Assembly (NCBI RefSeq): GCF_007747655.1
Contig: NZ_CP036274.1
Span: 8,494,001-8,558,000 of the forward strand
DNA from: Anatilimnocola aggregata
Lineage (GTDB): Bacteria > Planctomycetota > Planctomycetia > Pirellulales > Pirellulaceae
Reading direction: 5' to 3'
DNA length: 64,000 nucleotides
The notes under the pieces were generated by a model, which searched no databases, had not been told where the DNA came from, and saw nothing but the letters and a program-made list of their open reading frames with translations. Positions within the stretch are counted from its first letter, which is position 1. Each line of letters begins with the position of its first letter. The position numbers were made by a program, and so were the translations under genes. Positions 9,006 through 52,859 of the stretch are shown piece after piece.

Positions 9006-9022
9006 GCGTTTTCACGTAGGCC

Positions 9023-9103
9023 AGTCATTCCATGACTCGCGCATCTTGTGCGGTCAAAACGTCTGGCCTATTAATCAGTTCACTCAGTCATGGAATGACT
9101 GAG
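9023..9103. repeat. Inverted pair of AGTCATTCCATGACT palindromes
   Basis: The 15-mer at 9023-9037 is the exact reverse complement of 9086-9100. The second copy also sits in a self-palindrome, CTCAGTCAT-GGA-ATGACTGAG (9083-9103). The same kind of palindrome recurs at 42571-42589 and, with altered arms, at 49061-49081 and 49374-49394. It could act as a terminator after the ferredoxin gene. Confidence 0.75.
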
Positions 9104-9225
9104 CTACGATTAACTCGCCGCGTGAGATACCACGCGTAGATGGCGAGTCCCAGGCAACTTAGCCAGCCCAAGTGCCATTCTGACGAAACGCCAAGAAGTT
9201 CTACTTGCTCGCGAATAACTGGCAT
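9088..9225 (-). CDS. Small membrane ORF resembling the tail of the 115-residue NPYESP protein
   Basis: 45 codons from an ATG at 9225, preceded by GGAAGCAG. The protein has one hydrophobic segment ending GLAIYAWYLTRR, identical over AIYAWYLTRR to the C-terminus of the NPYESP protein encoded at 10935-11282. The DNA shares a perfect 31-nt match (9116-9146 with 10954-10984). It may be a real small membrane protein or the remnant of a duplicated gene. The stop codon lies inside a palindrome. Confidence 0.35.
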   Translation of the reverse strand: MPVIREQVELLGVSSEWHLGWLSCLGLAIYAWYLTRRVNRSSVIP

Positions 9226-42570: not shown

Positions 42571-42589
42571 CGAGTCATGGAATGACTCG
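42571..42589. repeat. CGAGTCAT-GGA-ATGACTCG palindrome
   Basis: A perfect 8-bp palindrome with a 3-nt centre, 28 nt before the ABC ATPase start. Same core (GTCATGGAATGAC) as the pair at 9023-9103. Confidence 0.7.
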
Positions 42590-42616
42590 ACTACGGGGAA
42601 GAGAAAGGCGTGTGGC

Positions 42617-47068: not shown

Positions 47069-48715
47069 CTACGCTTCGGCAATGCCAACCGGATCTTCGT
47101 GGATCTTCAGCGCCTTGTAGCCGCCAATCGACTTGAAGTAGATCAACAGGCCCAAGTAGATCACGGCCATCGTCGCTGGGATGGCGCTATCGGTTACCAG
47201 CGTGCGACGATCGCCACGAATGTCAGCTTCGACGACCTTCGTCTGCTCCGCGGTCCGCGGCTTCGCATCCTTGGCAGCTCCCAGCTTCTTGCCGTCGAGG
47301 CCGTAAGCATCAGGGAAGACGAGAAACTTGCTGGCCTGTTCGGCCTTGTACTCTTCAAACAGCGCCGGATCGGCCTTGGCAACTTCTTCACCCGCATAGC
47401 GATCCTTGAAGTAGCCGAGCCCCTTCGAACCAACAAGCCCAGCCGACATCATGCCGATGCCACCCATGATGCTGATGGCCACGGCACCTGACCGCGGAAA
47501 GCGATCGCTGGCTACCGCGAGCATCGTCGGCCAGAAGAAGGTCTTGCCGACGCCGTACACGGTTAGCGCCAACAGTGCCATCACAAAGGTCGATGCCATG
47601 CTCGTCAGGTTGAGGCCGATGAAGGCCAGCACGGCACAGGCGAGCAGAATCGCCACGGGCGACATGCCGAGCTTCTTTTCGATGAAGTGCGAACAGAAGC
47701 GGAGGCCGAACATAACTGCCGACGTGAATACGAACAGGAACTTCCCTTCGCTCGACGACAAGATGTTGCCCGTGATGTTCTGAATCCAGCCGTCCGTGCC
47801 CAGTTCCACCGCGCCGACCAGGGCGTGTGTGATGAATAGCACGAAGAGCAAAATCGAACCGATCGAAAACTTGGTGATGATGCCGATGCCGAGCAACAGC
47901 ACACCGCCAATGGCATAACCGATGTATTGGGGAATTGGCGAACCGGGGGGAAACGCCGCTTTCGCGAGATCGCCAAAGAACAGCGCGAGCAGGAAGCAAA
48001 CCACCGCTCCACCCAATAGACCGACGTCCTTGAACATTTCGCCGATGCTGAGGCCCTTCTCCGAAGCTTCCGACTTGGGAAACGACTGCCCCAGGAACAT
48101 AATGCCGTACAGCACGGTCGGAATGAGATACAGTGCGAGCTGCATCTTCCAATGGATCTTGTAGATGTCGTCGAGCACCCAGCCGAGGGCGCTGCCGAGG
48201 ATCAAACCGGCCGGCCAACTGGCGTGCAGAATGTTGAGGTAGTGGGTGCGGTTGTTCGGGAACAACGTCGCGACCAGCGGGTTGGCCACCGCTTCGAGCG
48301 TGCCGTTGGCAATCGCGAACAGGAACATGCCCACCGTCAGGTACATGTTGGCATTCGACTTGGCGAGGTCCAAAGCTTCTTTGGTCATGCTGGCGGCGTC
48401 TGCCGGTGCCATGGCCATGAACGTGACGATGGCCGAGGCAATGTGGAACAAGAAGGCAGCTGCCACCAGCCAACCATAGCCAACCTTATCGACGACGATT
48501 CCGCCGATAATGATGCCAAAGCAAAAGCCGGTGAAACCAGCAGCGCCGATGGCACCCAGTTCGGCACCGGTGAACCCGAATTCCCCGCCCCAGTTATCGA
48601 AGATACCGCCGCGAATCGCGAAACCGACGCCAGCGGCCAGGATTGCCATAAACCCTGCCCACAACAGGCGGTAGGCATTGGGCGCGATCGCGTCGCCCGC
48701 AAGGGACTTACTCAT
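47069..48715 (-). CDS. MFS transporter
   Basis: 548 residues with about 12 hydrophobic helices. The N-terminus [59 protein letters not shown], then [26 protein letters not shown], is typical of major facilitator symporters. The stretch [20 protein letters not shown] is the expected loop 2-3 region. A soluble insertion lies between late helices ([52 protein letters not shown]). The substrate, perhaps a sugar, is not certain. Stand-alone gene. Confidence 0.88.
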
Positions 48716-49156
48716 CGAACAGAACTCCGGGAGAGGACTCGGGAAGGTGGGCGGTTGACAAAGCTCGCGAGTATAGCCCGGTGGCCGCTAGCTGTAAATG
48801 AATTTCGCCACTAAGGGAGCCGAATTGCCCGGTAGCGGAAATTGCCGGTAGCTCACTGAGCGCTGCTTGGCGATCAAGTTCCTTTAGCCAACACCGCGCT
48901 GCGGCGCAAGCGACCCAGGAGTGCACTCCCCCGCTTTGCGGTAACCCGAAGACAAAACCCGCGAACCTTAGGGGGTTCAGAAACGTCGGAATAATACAGA
49001 GGGAGTTGTAGCGAATAACCCTGTAAGAAGTTCCCAAGCCCATTTCCCGTTTTCCCGTAGCTCAGTCACACCGTGACTGAGAACCGTCCGTCGGATTCGA
49101 GATTTCTCAGAGTTTGCCGCAGGGATGATCGCGGCCTTTCCCCTTGAAGGCATGCC
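48716..49156. other. Gene-poor intergenic region with palindrome
   Basis: No convincing gene is visible. A perfect palindrome, CTCAGTCAC-ACC-GTGACTGAG, is at 49061-49081. Its right half can alternatively pair through CTGAGAA (49077-49083) with TTCTCAG (49104-49110). The promoter of the MFS gene should lie at the left end. Confidence 0.5.
49061..49081. repeat. CTCAGTCAC-ACC-GTGACTGAG palindrome
   Basis: Perfect 9-bp arms with a 3-nt loop; first of four palindromes in the next 490 bp (others at 49374, 49470, 49527). Confidence 0.75.
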
Positions 49157-49366
49157 ATGCAAACCGGCCCCGGGCCTGATTTACAGTTGGTGCTCTGCCA
49201 CAACCGAGCACACGGCAGGATTGCCGTCGATCTCAACGCCTTTGTCGAATTCGACTTGGTGCTTACCAAAGCCCTGCGCGCACTCGTCAGCAAATGGCCC
49301 GACCCTCGCCCCGCCAGTCCGGCCCACGGGCGAATGAGTCAGCCCCCCAAACGAAAGCCGAAGTAA
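49157..49366 (+). CDS. Small hypothetical protein
   Basis: 69 residues. GAAGG sits 6 nt before the ATG, which favours real translation. The first half looks globular (LQLVLCHNRAHGRIAVDLNAFVEFDLVLTKALRALVSKW) and the tail is Pro/Arg/Lys-rich. No family recognised. The 5' side is bordered by the palindrome at 49061-49081. Confidence 0.45.
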   Translation: MQTGPGPDLQLVLCHNRAHGRIAVDLNAFVEFDLVLTKALRALVSKWPDPRPASPAHGRMSQPPKRKPK

Positions 49367-49373
49367 CACGTTG

Positions 49374-49547
49374 GTCAGTCACTCCGTGACTGACACCTTC
49401 TTCCGCCCTCTGACGCGGCCAATCGCAAACTCGTTGCTCAATCGCTGATCTTGTCAGCTGCAATTGCCTGTCAGGTATTCCGTACCTGACCTTCCGACGA
49501 GTTCGCTCTCCGCCCCCCTTCTCACGCCACCGCCCCTGCGGCGGTGG
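49374..49547. repeat. Three successive palindromes (49374-49394, 49470-49490, 49527-49547)
   Basis: GTCAGTCAC-TCC-GTGACTGAC; GTCAGGTA-TTCCG-TACCTGAC; CCACCGCC-CCTGC-GGCGGTGG. All arms are perfect. The first follows the small ORF by 8 nt. They have different sequences, so this is a cluster of unrelated or diverged elements rather than one repeat. Confidence 0.7.
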
Positions 49548-49692
49548 GTCATTGGCTTGTGCACTAGAGTTGCTGGGAACTATCTGAAAATGTTTTCAAA
49601 ATGTGCTTGCGATGTGAGCAGCATGTCTTTAATGTTGTGAGTAGTTGCGCAGGATGTTCTGCGCAGTTCGTGAGAACGCCAGGCCGGGGTCG

Positions 49693-49754
49693 GGAGGTTT
49701 TTCGGGCTCGGGAGTGGTCGCATTGGCTGAGAGAGGTTGGCCCGAAAATCCTCC
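49693..49754 (+). ncRNA. Candidate structured hairpin 'a' upstream of the HTH gene
   Basis: Arms 49693-49707 and 49740-49754 pair over 15 bp with one mismatch (outer GGAGG with CCTCC, inner TTTTCGGGC with GCCCGAAAA). It shares the TTTCGGG...CCCGAAAA scheme with the hairpins at 49823-49879 and 51305-51361. Whether it is transcribed is unknown. Confidence 0.4.
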
Positions 49755-49775
49755 GGAACCCAATGGGGTGGAACG

Positions 49776-49896
49776 ATCGCGCGAGGAGAGCGATCTCGCG
49801 AAGCTGCGCTTGTGGGTCAGGACAATGTTTCGGGTCGGCGCTGAGCGGCTGACGGCAACGTCTGCGCGCCCGAAAATTGCCCCGCCCCGGTTTGGG
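49776..49896. repeat. Left ~121-nt direct repeat with GNRA hairpin, before the HTH gene
   Basis: This stretch aligns with 51258-51379 over its whole length (by eye, four-fifths or more identical). It includes a shared block GGGTCAGGACAATGTTTCGG. It contains CGCGAG-N9-CTCGCG, then a stem CAATgTTTCGGG (49823-49834) with CCCGAAAATTG (49869-49879), and inside it GACG-GCAA-CGTC (49851-49862), a GNRA tetraloop hairpin. The repeat ends about 30 nt before the HTH gene start. Confidence 0.7.
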
Positions 49897-49927
49897 TTTG
49901 TTTGTTTTCATTTCGAAAGGAGCCGTT

Positions 49928-51244
49928 ATGTCTCGCAAGCTACGCATCAGTGCCCAGGATATCGAGATTTTCAAGTTGGTTCGCGTCGAAGGGCGCAAGC
50001 AGAAGGATGTGGCGATCAGCTTTCAGCTGACGCCGAGCGCGATCTGCAAAATCGTGCAGAAGATGGAGCAGTGGCAAGGCTCGCTGGTGCCGCACATCAC
50101 GCGGAAAACGGCGGAGTTTCGCGAGCTGAGCCGCGAGCAGCGGTTGTACAACTGCGTGCGATTGCGGCGACGGCAACTGCAAATGATGTACGAAGATTCG
50201 ATGGAGGCGTGGCGCGAGTCGCGCAAGCCGCTCGTCTCGGCCAAGGTCGTGAAACGAAACGGCGTCATCGAGCGCGAGGAATCGTGGAGCCGGCAGTGCC
50301 GCGGCAATCCAAGCATGCTGCGCGAGGCCCGCGAGATCAGCCGCGAACTGGCCGAGCTCGACGGGCTCAAGCGCGACGGCACGGTGGACCTCAGCTGCGA
50401 GGGGAGACTGTTCGAGCCCGCCGCGCTGACGAAGGAAGAAATGATCGCCGAACTGCGCGCGGAGGTGGAACTGTCACTGCGGGAGTTGGCGAAGTGGGAG
50501 GGGGCGGGGAAAGAGGGGGAGAGTGGGAGTGAGGGAGAGGGGGAGAAGGAAGAAGAGAACAAGTTAGAAGGTAGAAGTCAGAATGCAGAAGTGAAGACGG
50601 AGGAAGAATTCTGGAAATTGAAAATGGAAAGTTTTGGGATTCAGGAGGAAGTGATTGTGGCGGAAGTCGTGGAGGAGTCAGTAGATAAGAGCGTAGCGAG
50701 TCATGTCGAAACAATTGAAGATTCCGGAAATTTCCAGACATCAATTCCCGCTCTTGTTTCTGTTCCTGTCTCCCCCTCTCCCTCACTCCCACTCTCCCCC
50801 TCTTCACCCGCCTCCTCAACTCCCAAGCTAGAGATTCCGCAGAACCTGACCGCAGAGGGGAGGAGCCGGTTAGCGCAGCAGTTGTCGCTGTCGTACAAGT
50901 TGCAGCATGCTCCGGAACTGCTCGAGCCCCACGAGCGGCCAGCGGAACTTCCAGTGCAGTCGCAGGGCGCGCCAACGCAGCCCGCACAGCCCGTGAAGAA
51001 GAGCAAGCTGCACGTCAACCAGCACGGCCGCATCTTTCGCGACGTGGGTGGCTACCTCATGCCGATCCCGGGCATGTGGGTCGAACCGGAGAAGCCGTGG
51101 AAGCGAGAGGAGCGGGAAAGGGCGGAGGAAAGGGAGAAGGCAGAACGCAGAATGCAGAATGAAGGAGAGCGGGGAGATTGCGAGCGAAGGAAAGGTCGTG
51201 CACAGTGCGGCCCCTCACCCCGGAGTACCGAGGCGAGGGAGTGA
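49928..51244 (+). CDS. HTH-type DNA-binding protein flanked by direct repeats
   Basis: 438 residues from the ATG at 49928, with AAAGGAG 6 nt upstream. Residues ~8-45 (AQDIEIFKLVRVEGRKQKDVAISFQLTPSAICKIVQKM) look like a helix-turn-helix of the homeodomain or terminase-small-subunit kind. A charged helical part follows (to ~190, ending ISRELAELDGLKRDG). The middle (~195-310) is low-complexity: Glu/Gly-rich, then Ser/Pro-rich. This is because a perfect 35-bp inverted repeat in the DNA (50512-50546 and 50769-50803) is translated on both arms. A conserved-looking motif, HGRIFRDVGGYLMPIPGMW, comes near residue 365, and the basic tail seems to be read from dispersed repeats. Direct repeats lie on both sides. 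Function unknown. Confidence 0.75.
   Translation: MSRKLRISAQDIEIFKLVRVEGRKQKDVAISFQLTPSAICKIVQKMEQWQGSLVPHITRKTAEFRELSREQRLYNCVRLRRRQLQMMYEDSMEAWRESRKPLVSAKVVKRNGVIEREESWSRQCRGNPSMLREAREISRELAELDGLKRDGTVDLSCEGRLFEPAALTKEEMIAELRAEVELSLRELAKWEGAGKEGESGSEGEGEKEEENKLEGRSQNAEVKTEEEFWKLKMESFGIQEEVIVAEVVEESVDKSVASHVETIEDSGNFQTSIPALVSVPVSPSPSLPLSPSSPASSTPKLEIPQNLTAEGRSRLAQQLSLSYKLQHAPELLEPHERPAELPVQSQGAPTQPAQPVKKSKLHVNQHGRIFRDVGGYLMPIPGMWVEPEKPWKREERERAEEREKAERRMQNEGERGDCERRKGRAQCGPSPRSTEARE
50512..50803. repeat. Perfect 35-bp inverted repeat inside the HTH gene
   Basis: Left arm 50512-50546, right arm 50769-50803, purine-rich on one strand, 222-nt spacer. A shortened version of the right arm occurs at about 51451-51472, before folA. 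Confidence 0.85.
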
Positions 51245-51257
51245 GGAAGGGAGGGTA

Positions 51258-51379
51258 ATCGCGCGAGGAGAACGATCTCGCGGAATTGCGCTAGTGGGTC
51301 AGGACAATGTTTCGGGTCGGCGGTTGCCGGCTGAAGGTAACGTCAGCGAGCCCGAAAATTGCGCGGACCCGGGCTGGGA
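51258..51379. repeat. Right ~122-nt direct repeat with GNRA hairpin, after the HTH gene
   Basis: Counterpart of 49776-49896. The stem CAATgTTTCGGG (51305-51316) with CCCGAAAATTG (51351-51361) is identical. The inner hairpin 51330-51347 has a GTAA loop on a stem with one A-G mismatch. It begins 14 nt after the HTH gene stop. Confidence 0.7.
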
Positions 51380-51480
51380 CCTATTCTCTCGGCGGATAAA
51401 TTGAACAAACACACGTTCGCTGGCGCTGCAGGAAATTTCACTTGTCACTCTCGTTCTCACTCTCCCCCTCTCCGGCTCGT

Positions 51481-52026
51481 ATGCCCAGGCTGTCGTTGCT
51501 GGTAGCGGTGGCGCGAAATGGGGTAATAGGAAATCGCGGGGAGTTGCCGTGGCGGTTGAGCGCGGACTTGAAGCGGTTCAAGCAGTTGACGCTAGGCCAG
51601 ACAGTGCTGATGGGACGCAAGACGTACGAGTCGATCGTGGCGGCCTTGGGCAAACCCCTGCCGGGCAGAGTGAGCCTGGTGCTATCGCGGCAAGCGGAGC
51701 CCGTTAGTGTGGAGGCGACGTTGCCCAGCGTGGCTATTGATGGCGCGGGGCAGGTCTTATTGGTGCGCGATGTGGCGGCGGCGCTGAGCCTCGCGCGCGA
51801 GCAGTCAGAACTGTTTGTGGTCGGGGGCGGCGAGATTTACGCCCTCACGCTGCCGCAGGCAGATCGGTTGTACTGGACATGGGTCGAGGCGGAGCCGGCG
51901 GGAGATACGTCGTTTCCGCGGGTCGAGTGGAATGAATGGAAATTGCAGCAGGAAACCCGCTACACAGCTGACGCCCGCAACCAGTACGATACGACGTTCG
52001 CGATTTACGAGCGTGCTCCCACTTAG
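51481..52026 (+). CDS. folA: Dihydrofolate reductase
   Basis: 181 residues from the ATG at 51481. The opening LSLLVAVARNGVIGNRGELPWRLSADLKRFKQLTLGQTVLMGRKTYESI is diagnostic: the PW pair, the catalytic acid region and the NADPH-binding GRKTYES. The later ELFVVGGGEIYAL is the second NADPH-binding stretch. It reduces dihydrofolate to tetrahydrofolate with NADPH and recycles the product of ThyA (26646-27440). The upstream 40 nt carry a pyrimidine-rich copy of the inverted-repeat arm found in the HTH gene. A hairpin repeat follows directly. Confidence 0.95.
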   Translation: MPRLSLLVAVARNGVIGNRGELPWRLSADLKRFKQLTLGQTVLMGRKTYESIVAALGKPLPGRVSLVLSRQAEPVSVEATLPSVAIDGAGQVLLVRDVAAALSLAREQSELFVVGGGEIYALTLPQADRLYWTWVEAEPAGDTSFPRVEWNEWKLQQETRYTADARNQYDTTFAIYERAPT

Positions 52027-52116
52027 CCCGACGCGTGAGCGAGGGTGAAGTGCAGCGAGTCCTGGGAAAATGGAGTGAGAGTTAAAGGTGCTCCCTCGCT
52101 GACGCGTCGGGCTAAG
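52022..52116. repeat. CTTAGCCCGACGCGTGAGCG hairpin repeat
   Basis: 24-nt arms 52022-52045 and 52093-52116, inverted, one mismatch; 47-nt loop. Overlaps the folA stop codon and is probably its terminator region. Same family as 14308-14451. Confidence 0.8.
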
Positions 52117-52192
52117 AAAGGCAAGACATCAGCAATACACGACAAAAAGACACGACAAACGAATTCACAACTCAAGTGAAGAAGGATCCATC

Positions 52193-52591
52193 ATGGCTGC
52201 GAGTGTTACCGACGAACTGTTGCAACTGAACCAGACGCTGCTCAACGCGATCATCAGTGGCGATTGGGCGACGTACGAATCGCTCTGCGATCCGTCGATC
52301 ACCTGCTTCGAGGCGGAGGCACGCGGGCAACTCGTCGCCGGAATGGCTTTTCACAAGTACTACTTCGATTTGCCTGGAACGCCGCAAAAGCCGGCGAAGG
52401 TGGTGACGATGAGTCAGCCCCATGTTCGCTTGCTCGGCGATAGCGGTGCGGTGCTGACCTACGTGCGACTGAATCAATCGCTCGACTCGGCTGGCGGTCC
52501 GCAGACTTCGCGTGTGGAAGAGACTCGCGTGTGGCAGAAGATGGGTGGCGCGTGGAAGCACGTACACTTCCATCGTTCGACACACACCTGA
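52193..52591 (+). CDS. CaMKII association-domain-like (NTF2-fold) protein
   Basis: 132 residues. LLQLNQTLLNAIISGDWATYESLCDPSITCFEAEARGQLVAGMAFHKYYFD and SQPHVRLLGDSGAVLTYVRLNQSLD...RVEETRVWQKMGGAWKHVHFHRS match the bacterial CaMKII_AD/SnoaL-like family, a cone-shaped fold that often dimerises. Some related proteins are enzymes or binding proteins for small ligands; this one has no known substrate. A GAAGGA ribosome site precedes the ATG. Single gene. Confidence 0.88.
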   Translation: MAASVTDELLQLNQTLLNAIISGDWATYESLCDPSITCFEAEARGQLVAGMAFHKYYFDLPGTPQKPAKVVTMSQPHVRLLGDSGAVLTYVRLNQSLDSAGGPQTSRVEETRVWQKMGGAWKHVHFHRSTHT

Positions 52592-52859
52592 CTGGTGGTG
52601 AGGCTGGGAATTGGATAGGAGCGCGGCAGAAGCAAGGAGATGGGCGTCATGGCAGAGCGTGCCGAGAACGTAGCTAGCGGCGATTGGCGGAGTGCGGCAT
52701 TTTTTGGGGAATGAGAGGAAATTTGCAGGCGGGTCGGGTATGATTAACTCGACTTAGCAGGGAGCGCTCCGGCGGTTGGTCCCTCGCGCTGCGACCTTGC
52801 CTCTCGCTTGTTCAACAACTGGATGGCGGCCGATGACGGCAGGTAATACGTTCGGCAGG

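Follow-up and report, generated by a model that had tools for sequence, protein, structure and literature searches.

In a 64,000-nucleotide stretch of the genome of Anatilimnocola aggregata (hereafter the window), a single gene for a helix-turn-helix (HTH) protein lies between two direct repeats, and in our judgement there is an even chance that this locus is a single-gene mobile unit bounded by REPs and present six times in the genome. The copied block runs from the palindrome REP2 through hairpin A, hairpin B and the HTH gene to the palindrome REP3, and four of the copies add a second hairpin B (Table 1). By analogy with known REP systems, such a unit would probably be mobilised in trans by RAYT-type HUH enzymes.

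Table 1. Features of the HTH locus, in window coordinates.
Feature	Position	Strand	Basis
Copied unit, long form (four of the six copies)	49516..51378	+	Six-copy alignment; left edge uncertain by several bases
REP2, palindromic repeat of 43 nt that marks the left edge	49524..49566	+	Genome search
Hairpin A, read as a REP of RAYT type	49685..49762	+	Inverted repeat 49686-49707/49740-49761; same type flanks the RAYT gene
Left direct repeat (in the preliminary description)	49776..49896	+	Repeat finding, genome search
Hairpin B, left copy	49813..49888	+	Covariation in 16 chosen copies; B hairpins at the RAYT
HTH gene, 438 aa, from ATG through stop	49928..51244	+	ORF; six near-full-length genomic matches; dN/dS
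REP3, ~31-nt palindrome over the stop codon and 3′ end of the gene, right edge of two short copies	51212..51244	+	Genome search
Right direct repeat, with the second hairpin B (51295-51370)	51258..51378	+	Repeat finding; four right-hand copies form one clade

The preliminary description of the locus had reported a duplicated repeat around one HTH open reading frame, and repeat finding in the window shows that this duplication is real. The direct repeats are 121 nt long and 85% identical, with stretches such as GGTCAGGACAATGTTTCGGG having the same letters on both sides, and they are separated from the ORF by 31 nt on the 5′ side and 13 nt on the 3′ side, close to the 30 and 14 nt given before. 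That description did not include the larger two-hairpin structure (A and B) of which the left repeat is a portion, nor the start of the copied unit, which lies ~250 nt further left, near 49515-49523. The whole genome (9,007,740 bases, one contig) was then searched with the left repeat. The right repeat was recovered with an E value of 3.1e-33, and at E ≤ 0.001 at least 27 matches were obtained, with 40 of the 44 candidates scored. By position, 12 of these 27 lie in the six units, two beside one unit, two at a RAYT gene and 11 elsewhere. A separate A-B-A-B cluster (8754508-8754836 of the genome, locus L019) is located 1.3-1.6 kb upstream of one unit and outside of it. An Rfam scan of 48700-52600 gave one sub-threshold match (MIR408, 21.9 bits vs a cut-off of 64), which was taken as chance, and a known structured RNA was therefore discarded as a candidate at this locus.

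Searching the own genome with the 438-aa protein yielded six near-full-length matches with 92-100% identity. The search also returned two pieces of the C-terminal part, which lie in a different frame, and two distantly related proteins with 25% identity. Four of the six are free of stop codons in the matched stretch, i.e., the window copy and the copies at 2558138, 7757691 (matched up to residue 430) and 1037165 (matched up to residue 421, the last part being in another frame); the copies at 1817663 and 8756539 carry one TAG and one TGA, respectively. When the six loci were aligned, they shared a block of ~1.7-1.9 kb with unrelated flanks, and the matches of the other five copies start between positions 49515 and 49523 of the window. 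The two short copies (L019 and L022) end at the gene end, near 51240, without the right repeat, and the other four continue through the second repeat. In L020 and L022 the ~210-nt A-B unit is present twice 5′ of the gene. Six copies with unrelated flanks support the earlier idea that the gene and its repeats had been mobile. When 14 copies of the repeat were placed in a tree, the right-hand repeats, four in number, grouped together in a single clade (support 0.954) that lies within the left-hand repeats, and they did not group with their own left repeats. The bracketing of the gene therefore predates the spread of the unit. No empty site was found; the one locus tested, DHFR in a genome of the same genus (G001), is not syntenic and is uninformative on this point because a different gene lies upstream of DHFR.

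The left boundary of the unit is REP2, not hairpin A. REP2 has 24 matches in the genome, of which six are at the units and 18 elsewhere without the gene. For REP3 35 matches were found, distributed over the ends of the unit genes (six), places just downstream of units (two) and the rest of the genome (27). Within the 64-kb window REP2, REP3, A and B are all confined to the unit, at E values up to 0.05. The own genome contains seven matches to the transposase profile Y1_Tnp (PF01797), none of which is near any REP2 match, and REP2 is thus without a known cognate enzyme.

The ~210-nt A-B unit consists of two long hairpins, and the direct repeats contain one of them, B. In 16 hand-chosen copies, 95.5% of the cells in the B stem pair. 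Four pairs are altered on both sides, which was reached in 15 of 500 shuffles, and neither the 10 cells altered on both sides nor the covariation score was matched in any of 500 shuffles; further pair types were not above the shuffles (258/500). On account of this pairing and covariation the B stem looks conserved, with the usual caution as to how far the copies are related. One left repeat folded alone was not clearly stabler than its shuffles (z -1.04 as DNA and +0.76 as RNA); it is the comparison of copies that supports the pairing.

Hairpins of both types also occur at a resident RAYT. Next to the seven Y1_Tnp matches in the own genome, 10 were detected in G001. A RAYT with a Y1_Tnp match over the Pfam cut-off is encoded at 1,217,226-1,217,516 on the minus strand and is bracketed by hairpins A and B, with A located 5′ of the gene and A-B-A-B after the stop codon. 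Because the hairpins bracket this RAYT, the repeats are read as its REP/BIME, and the HTH gene is not regarded as their dedicated transposase. Of the interpretation initially given for the locus, mobility and the likeness to REP-associated transposase loci hold. Exclusive association of the repeats with the HTH gene is not supported, given the matches at the RAYT and elsewhere. Using the A-B unit of the RAYT as query, 39 matches were obtained in the genome. An A-type match lies ~0.4 kb from a distant HTH relative (L060), a closeness that by a rough estimate is only suggestive.

Repeats in common with HTH loci were also seen at other RAYT genes. Among the seven RAYT loci of the own genome, L123 has hairpins in common with the six units and L060, L128 has short repeats in common with L060, L061 and L113, L121 shows a single match (67%, to L022), and no match was found for the other four. 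In G001, with 10 RAYT loci, L120 matches L063 and L116, L131 matches L116 and L117, three (L129, L134 and L135) have other matches and five have none. As there is no genome-wide background count, this sharing was not used as proof.

Strong purifying selection acts on the HTH protein. For codons 1-184 all 15 pairs of the six copies have a dN/dS of 0.00-0.09 (dS 0.08-0.22), and in two C-terminal blocks, one of 33 and one of 34 codons, none of the 15 pairs shows an amino-acid change, at a mean dS of 0.10 and 0.25, respectively. The non-coding left part of the unit is 87-93% identical. Low values were also obtained for two families of related genes in G001, with a dN/dS of 0.05 for family A (one pair) and 0.01-0.07 for family B (six pairs). 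From this conservation we infer that the protein serves either the unit or its host.

Scans of the window protein against Pfam, NCBIfam and PHROGs resulted in weak or partial matches only and revealed neither a nuclease nor a recombinase domain, in line with the earlier remark that HUH, DDE and recombinase motifs are missing. Y1_Tnp did not match the protein at E values up to 1. The PHROGs label ‘RNase E’ (phrog_645), common to nine of 30 family members, was not trusted; among seven members scanned singly, it was three distant ones that matched it. The AlphaFold2 model, based on 30 family members, has a mean pLDDT of 82.7 and a pTM of 0.51 and consists of the HTH, a long helix, a beta-hairpin and a helix. 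Among solved structures it matches KorA and ArdK via the HTH, with zero fold matches at E ≤ 0.001, and the KorA/TrfB family PF16509 scores 20.8 and 22.2 bits, not reaching the curated Pfam cut-off of 26.7. The best matches among viral predicted structures (E 4e-4 to 3e-3) are to HTH proteins, uncharacterised proteins and proteins named as terminases, and their TM-scores are 0.22-0.32. The likeness to a terminase small subunit that had been proposed from the N-terminus is weak: two low-TM fold matches and a Terminase_5 match in three of 30 family members are in favor of it, but two scans of viral contigs detected no relative of the protein. The window protein is called a KorA-like HTH protein with a build recalling small terminases, and is assigned to neither family.

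Distant members of the protein family were searched with a profile of eight members that are 19-30% identical to the window protein, scoring the best 15 or fewer candidates per genome. Matches were found in 22 of 246 related genomes, including the own genome (at least 12), G001 (at least 13), G040 from another family of the order (at least 11) and G081 (at least five); the remaining genomes have one or two each. A scan of genome contigs with the single protein gave no match, and a scan with alignment A5 gave two weak ones, both in MAGs.

These distant members form small within-genome families of their own, whose left ends are mostly dispersed palindromes, and the edge palindromes differ from one amplified family to another. 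Family B of G001 has five copies with a ~245-nt palindromic repeat at each end; the two repeats have inverted orientation in L055 and direct orientation in L057. This repeat has at least 70 matches in G001 (40 of 93 candidates scored), many of them ~88 nt long and with alternating orientation. Family A has three copies, and its left end has eight matches, three at the units and five elsewhere (two of them short). Two loci of family A, L051 (220-3222) and L052 (302-3289), have in common an extra ~1.6 kb that is absent from L053; its ORFs look like an integrase-type transposase, and it seems that an interrupted unit was copied. In the own genome, L061 and L114 match with 95% over 962 nt, and L062 and L113 with 96.8% over 908 nt. 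The left end of L061/L114 starts with GTAG-tagged palindromes (tag named as in PMC3733652), which the window also contains elsewhere (42571-42599 and 9015-9040). Contrary to the rule of dispersed ends, no other place in the genome was found to have the left end of L062/L113. The nine G040 loci that were compared have mosaic stretches in common, and five G081 loci have almost nothing in common.

REPs and BIMEs are thought to move as hairpin-bounded single-stranded DNA via a Y1 HUH enzyme that acts in trans. The block described here would probably move by the same route, with a RAYT or an IS200-like Y1 HUH enzyme cutting and rejoining it in trans. The HTH protein would bind DNA at or near the hairpins as a regulator or helper, and may have been kept intact because it is useful to the unit or to the host. 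Several observations count against a mobile unit: the left edge REP2 has no known cognate enzyme, no empty site was found, the right edges are ragged with two copies lacking the right repeat, and L062/L113 have a left end that is not dispersed. Moreover, the purifying selection could equally result from a host function. It is possible, if on the whole somewhat unlikely, that the six loci are a normal host family of DNA-binding genes whose copies arose at REP clusters, through recombination or the action of other mobile elements. The palindromes would then mark recombination-prone intergenic DNA and there would be no dedicated mobility. Strong selection on the protein suits this explanation, as do the extra A-B unit in two copies and the fact that no target-site duplication was noticed by eye at the units, and recombination would suit the ragged right edges and the mosaic copies in G040. 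However, six copies with a sharp left edge at the same palindrome speak against it, and so do the separate families of distant members, which show the same single-gene layout in two genomes.

Another explanation, which we consider decidedly unlikely, is a new type of element with the HTH protein itself as mobility determinant, which would bind or recruit and borrow any available HUH enzyme, so that the edge REP families change from lineage to lineage. The protein is indeed kept in every amplified family tested, with differing edge palindromes, but no catalytic domain was found, and a host role would yield the same dN/dS. It is highly improbable that a minimal phage satellite is present here, with the gene encoding its small terminase subunit and the repeats serving as its packaging sites. 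The model with its HTH plus helix, beta-hairpin and helix, the two fold matches to viral proteins labelled Terminase small subunit and Terminase (E about 2e-3) and the three members with Terminase_5 would agree with it. However, both fold matches have TM-scores of only 0.22-0.32, no relative appeared in the two viral-contig scans, the ORF lists contain by eye no recognisable phage gene, and the repeats are best read as the REPs of a RAYT.

As expected of a non-autonomous REP-type mobile unit, the locus presents a multi-copy block with palindromic ends and unrelated flanks, of which the right edge is ragged. Like in RAYT (tnpA-REP)/REPtron systems with their REPs, BIMEs and REPINs, one gene is placed between genome-dispersed hairpins, and A and B do bracket a RAYT in this genome, but the bracketed gene here encodes an HTH protein without a Y1/HUH domain. 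In addition, REPtrons are reported not to transpose as a unit (PMC6006769), whereas here the HTH gene has been copied six times along with its hairpins. Small units with terminal palindromes are also typical of IS200/IS605 elements; in contrast to these, the HTH protein shows no TnpA-like domain. ISPpu9, a REP-targeting insertion sequence, is likewise a single-gene unit linked to REPs (PMC8450116), which resembles the HTH unit to that extent; here, however, whole palindromes inside the edges travel with the unit and a transposase domain is missing. With the KorA/ArdK (TrfB) repressors the protein shares an HTH domain alike in sequence and fold, but it stays under the Pfam cut-off, has a long C-terminal part for which no counterpart was found, and is encoded by a chromosomal multi-copy gene. 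In a literature search with most subscription journals outside its scope, no description of a REP-bounded gene unit was found.

A REP-bounded gene unit in six copies would be a new turn of the REP theme. The spread of REPs is described as poorly understood (PMC8266576). Here, a protein-coding unit with REP-type hairpins at its boundaries has multiplied, and distant relatives form separate within-genome families. The locus lends itself naturally to testing whether DNA that lies between two REPs can be moved by a RAYT and whether REP systems carry cargo. The HTH family, which recurs as cargo and is under strong purifying selection, is a candidate for a partner or regulator in REP systems. Going further, one could imagine a new class of minimal mobile elements with a dedicated DNA-binding protein that is under strong purifying selection and brings a RAYT or another HUH enzyme of the host to the bounding REP-type hairpins, different lineages being paired with different REP families. 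We regard this as unlikely and mention it tentatively; if true, the HTH protein would be a recruitment subunit split from its nuclease.

Some further observations were made around the units. Reading of the ORFs in two species showed three coincidences among the neighbours of their HTH units: a VCBS-repeat-like gene adjoins both L062 and L057, an MFS-like transporter is close to L054 as well as to the unit of the window, and L060 and L059 both have a DegP-like gene nearby. In two of these cases the neighbour is not on the same side, and the coincidences could reflect preferred sites or chance. Within the HTH ORF a 49-nt inverted repeat (50498-50546/50769-50817) is 94% complementary and consists of purine/pyrimidine-rich simple sequence, with a second arm that differs in length among the unit copies. 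More short palindromic repeats are present at 49051-49085, 49369-49393, 9083-9108 and 42571-42599, some of them GTAG-tagged and two just left of the unit. Finally, a 24-nt inverted repeat (52022-52045/52093-52116, 96% complementary) is found at the 3′ end of the DHFR gene and is perhaps a terminator or another REP-like palindrome.
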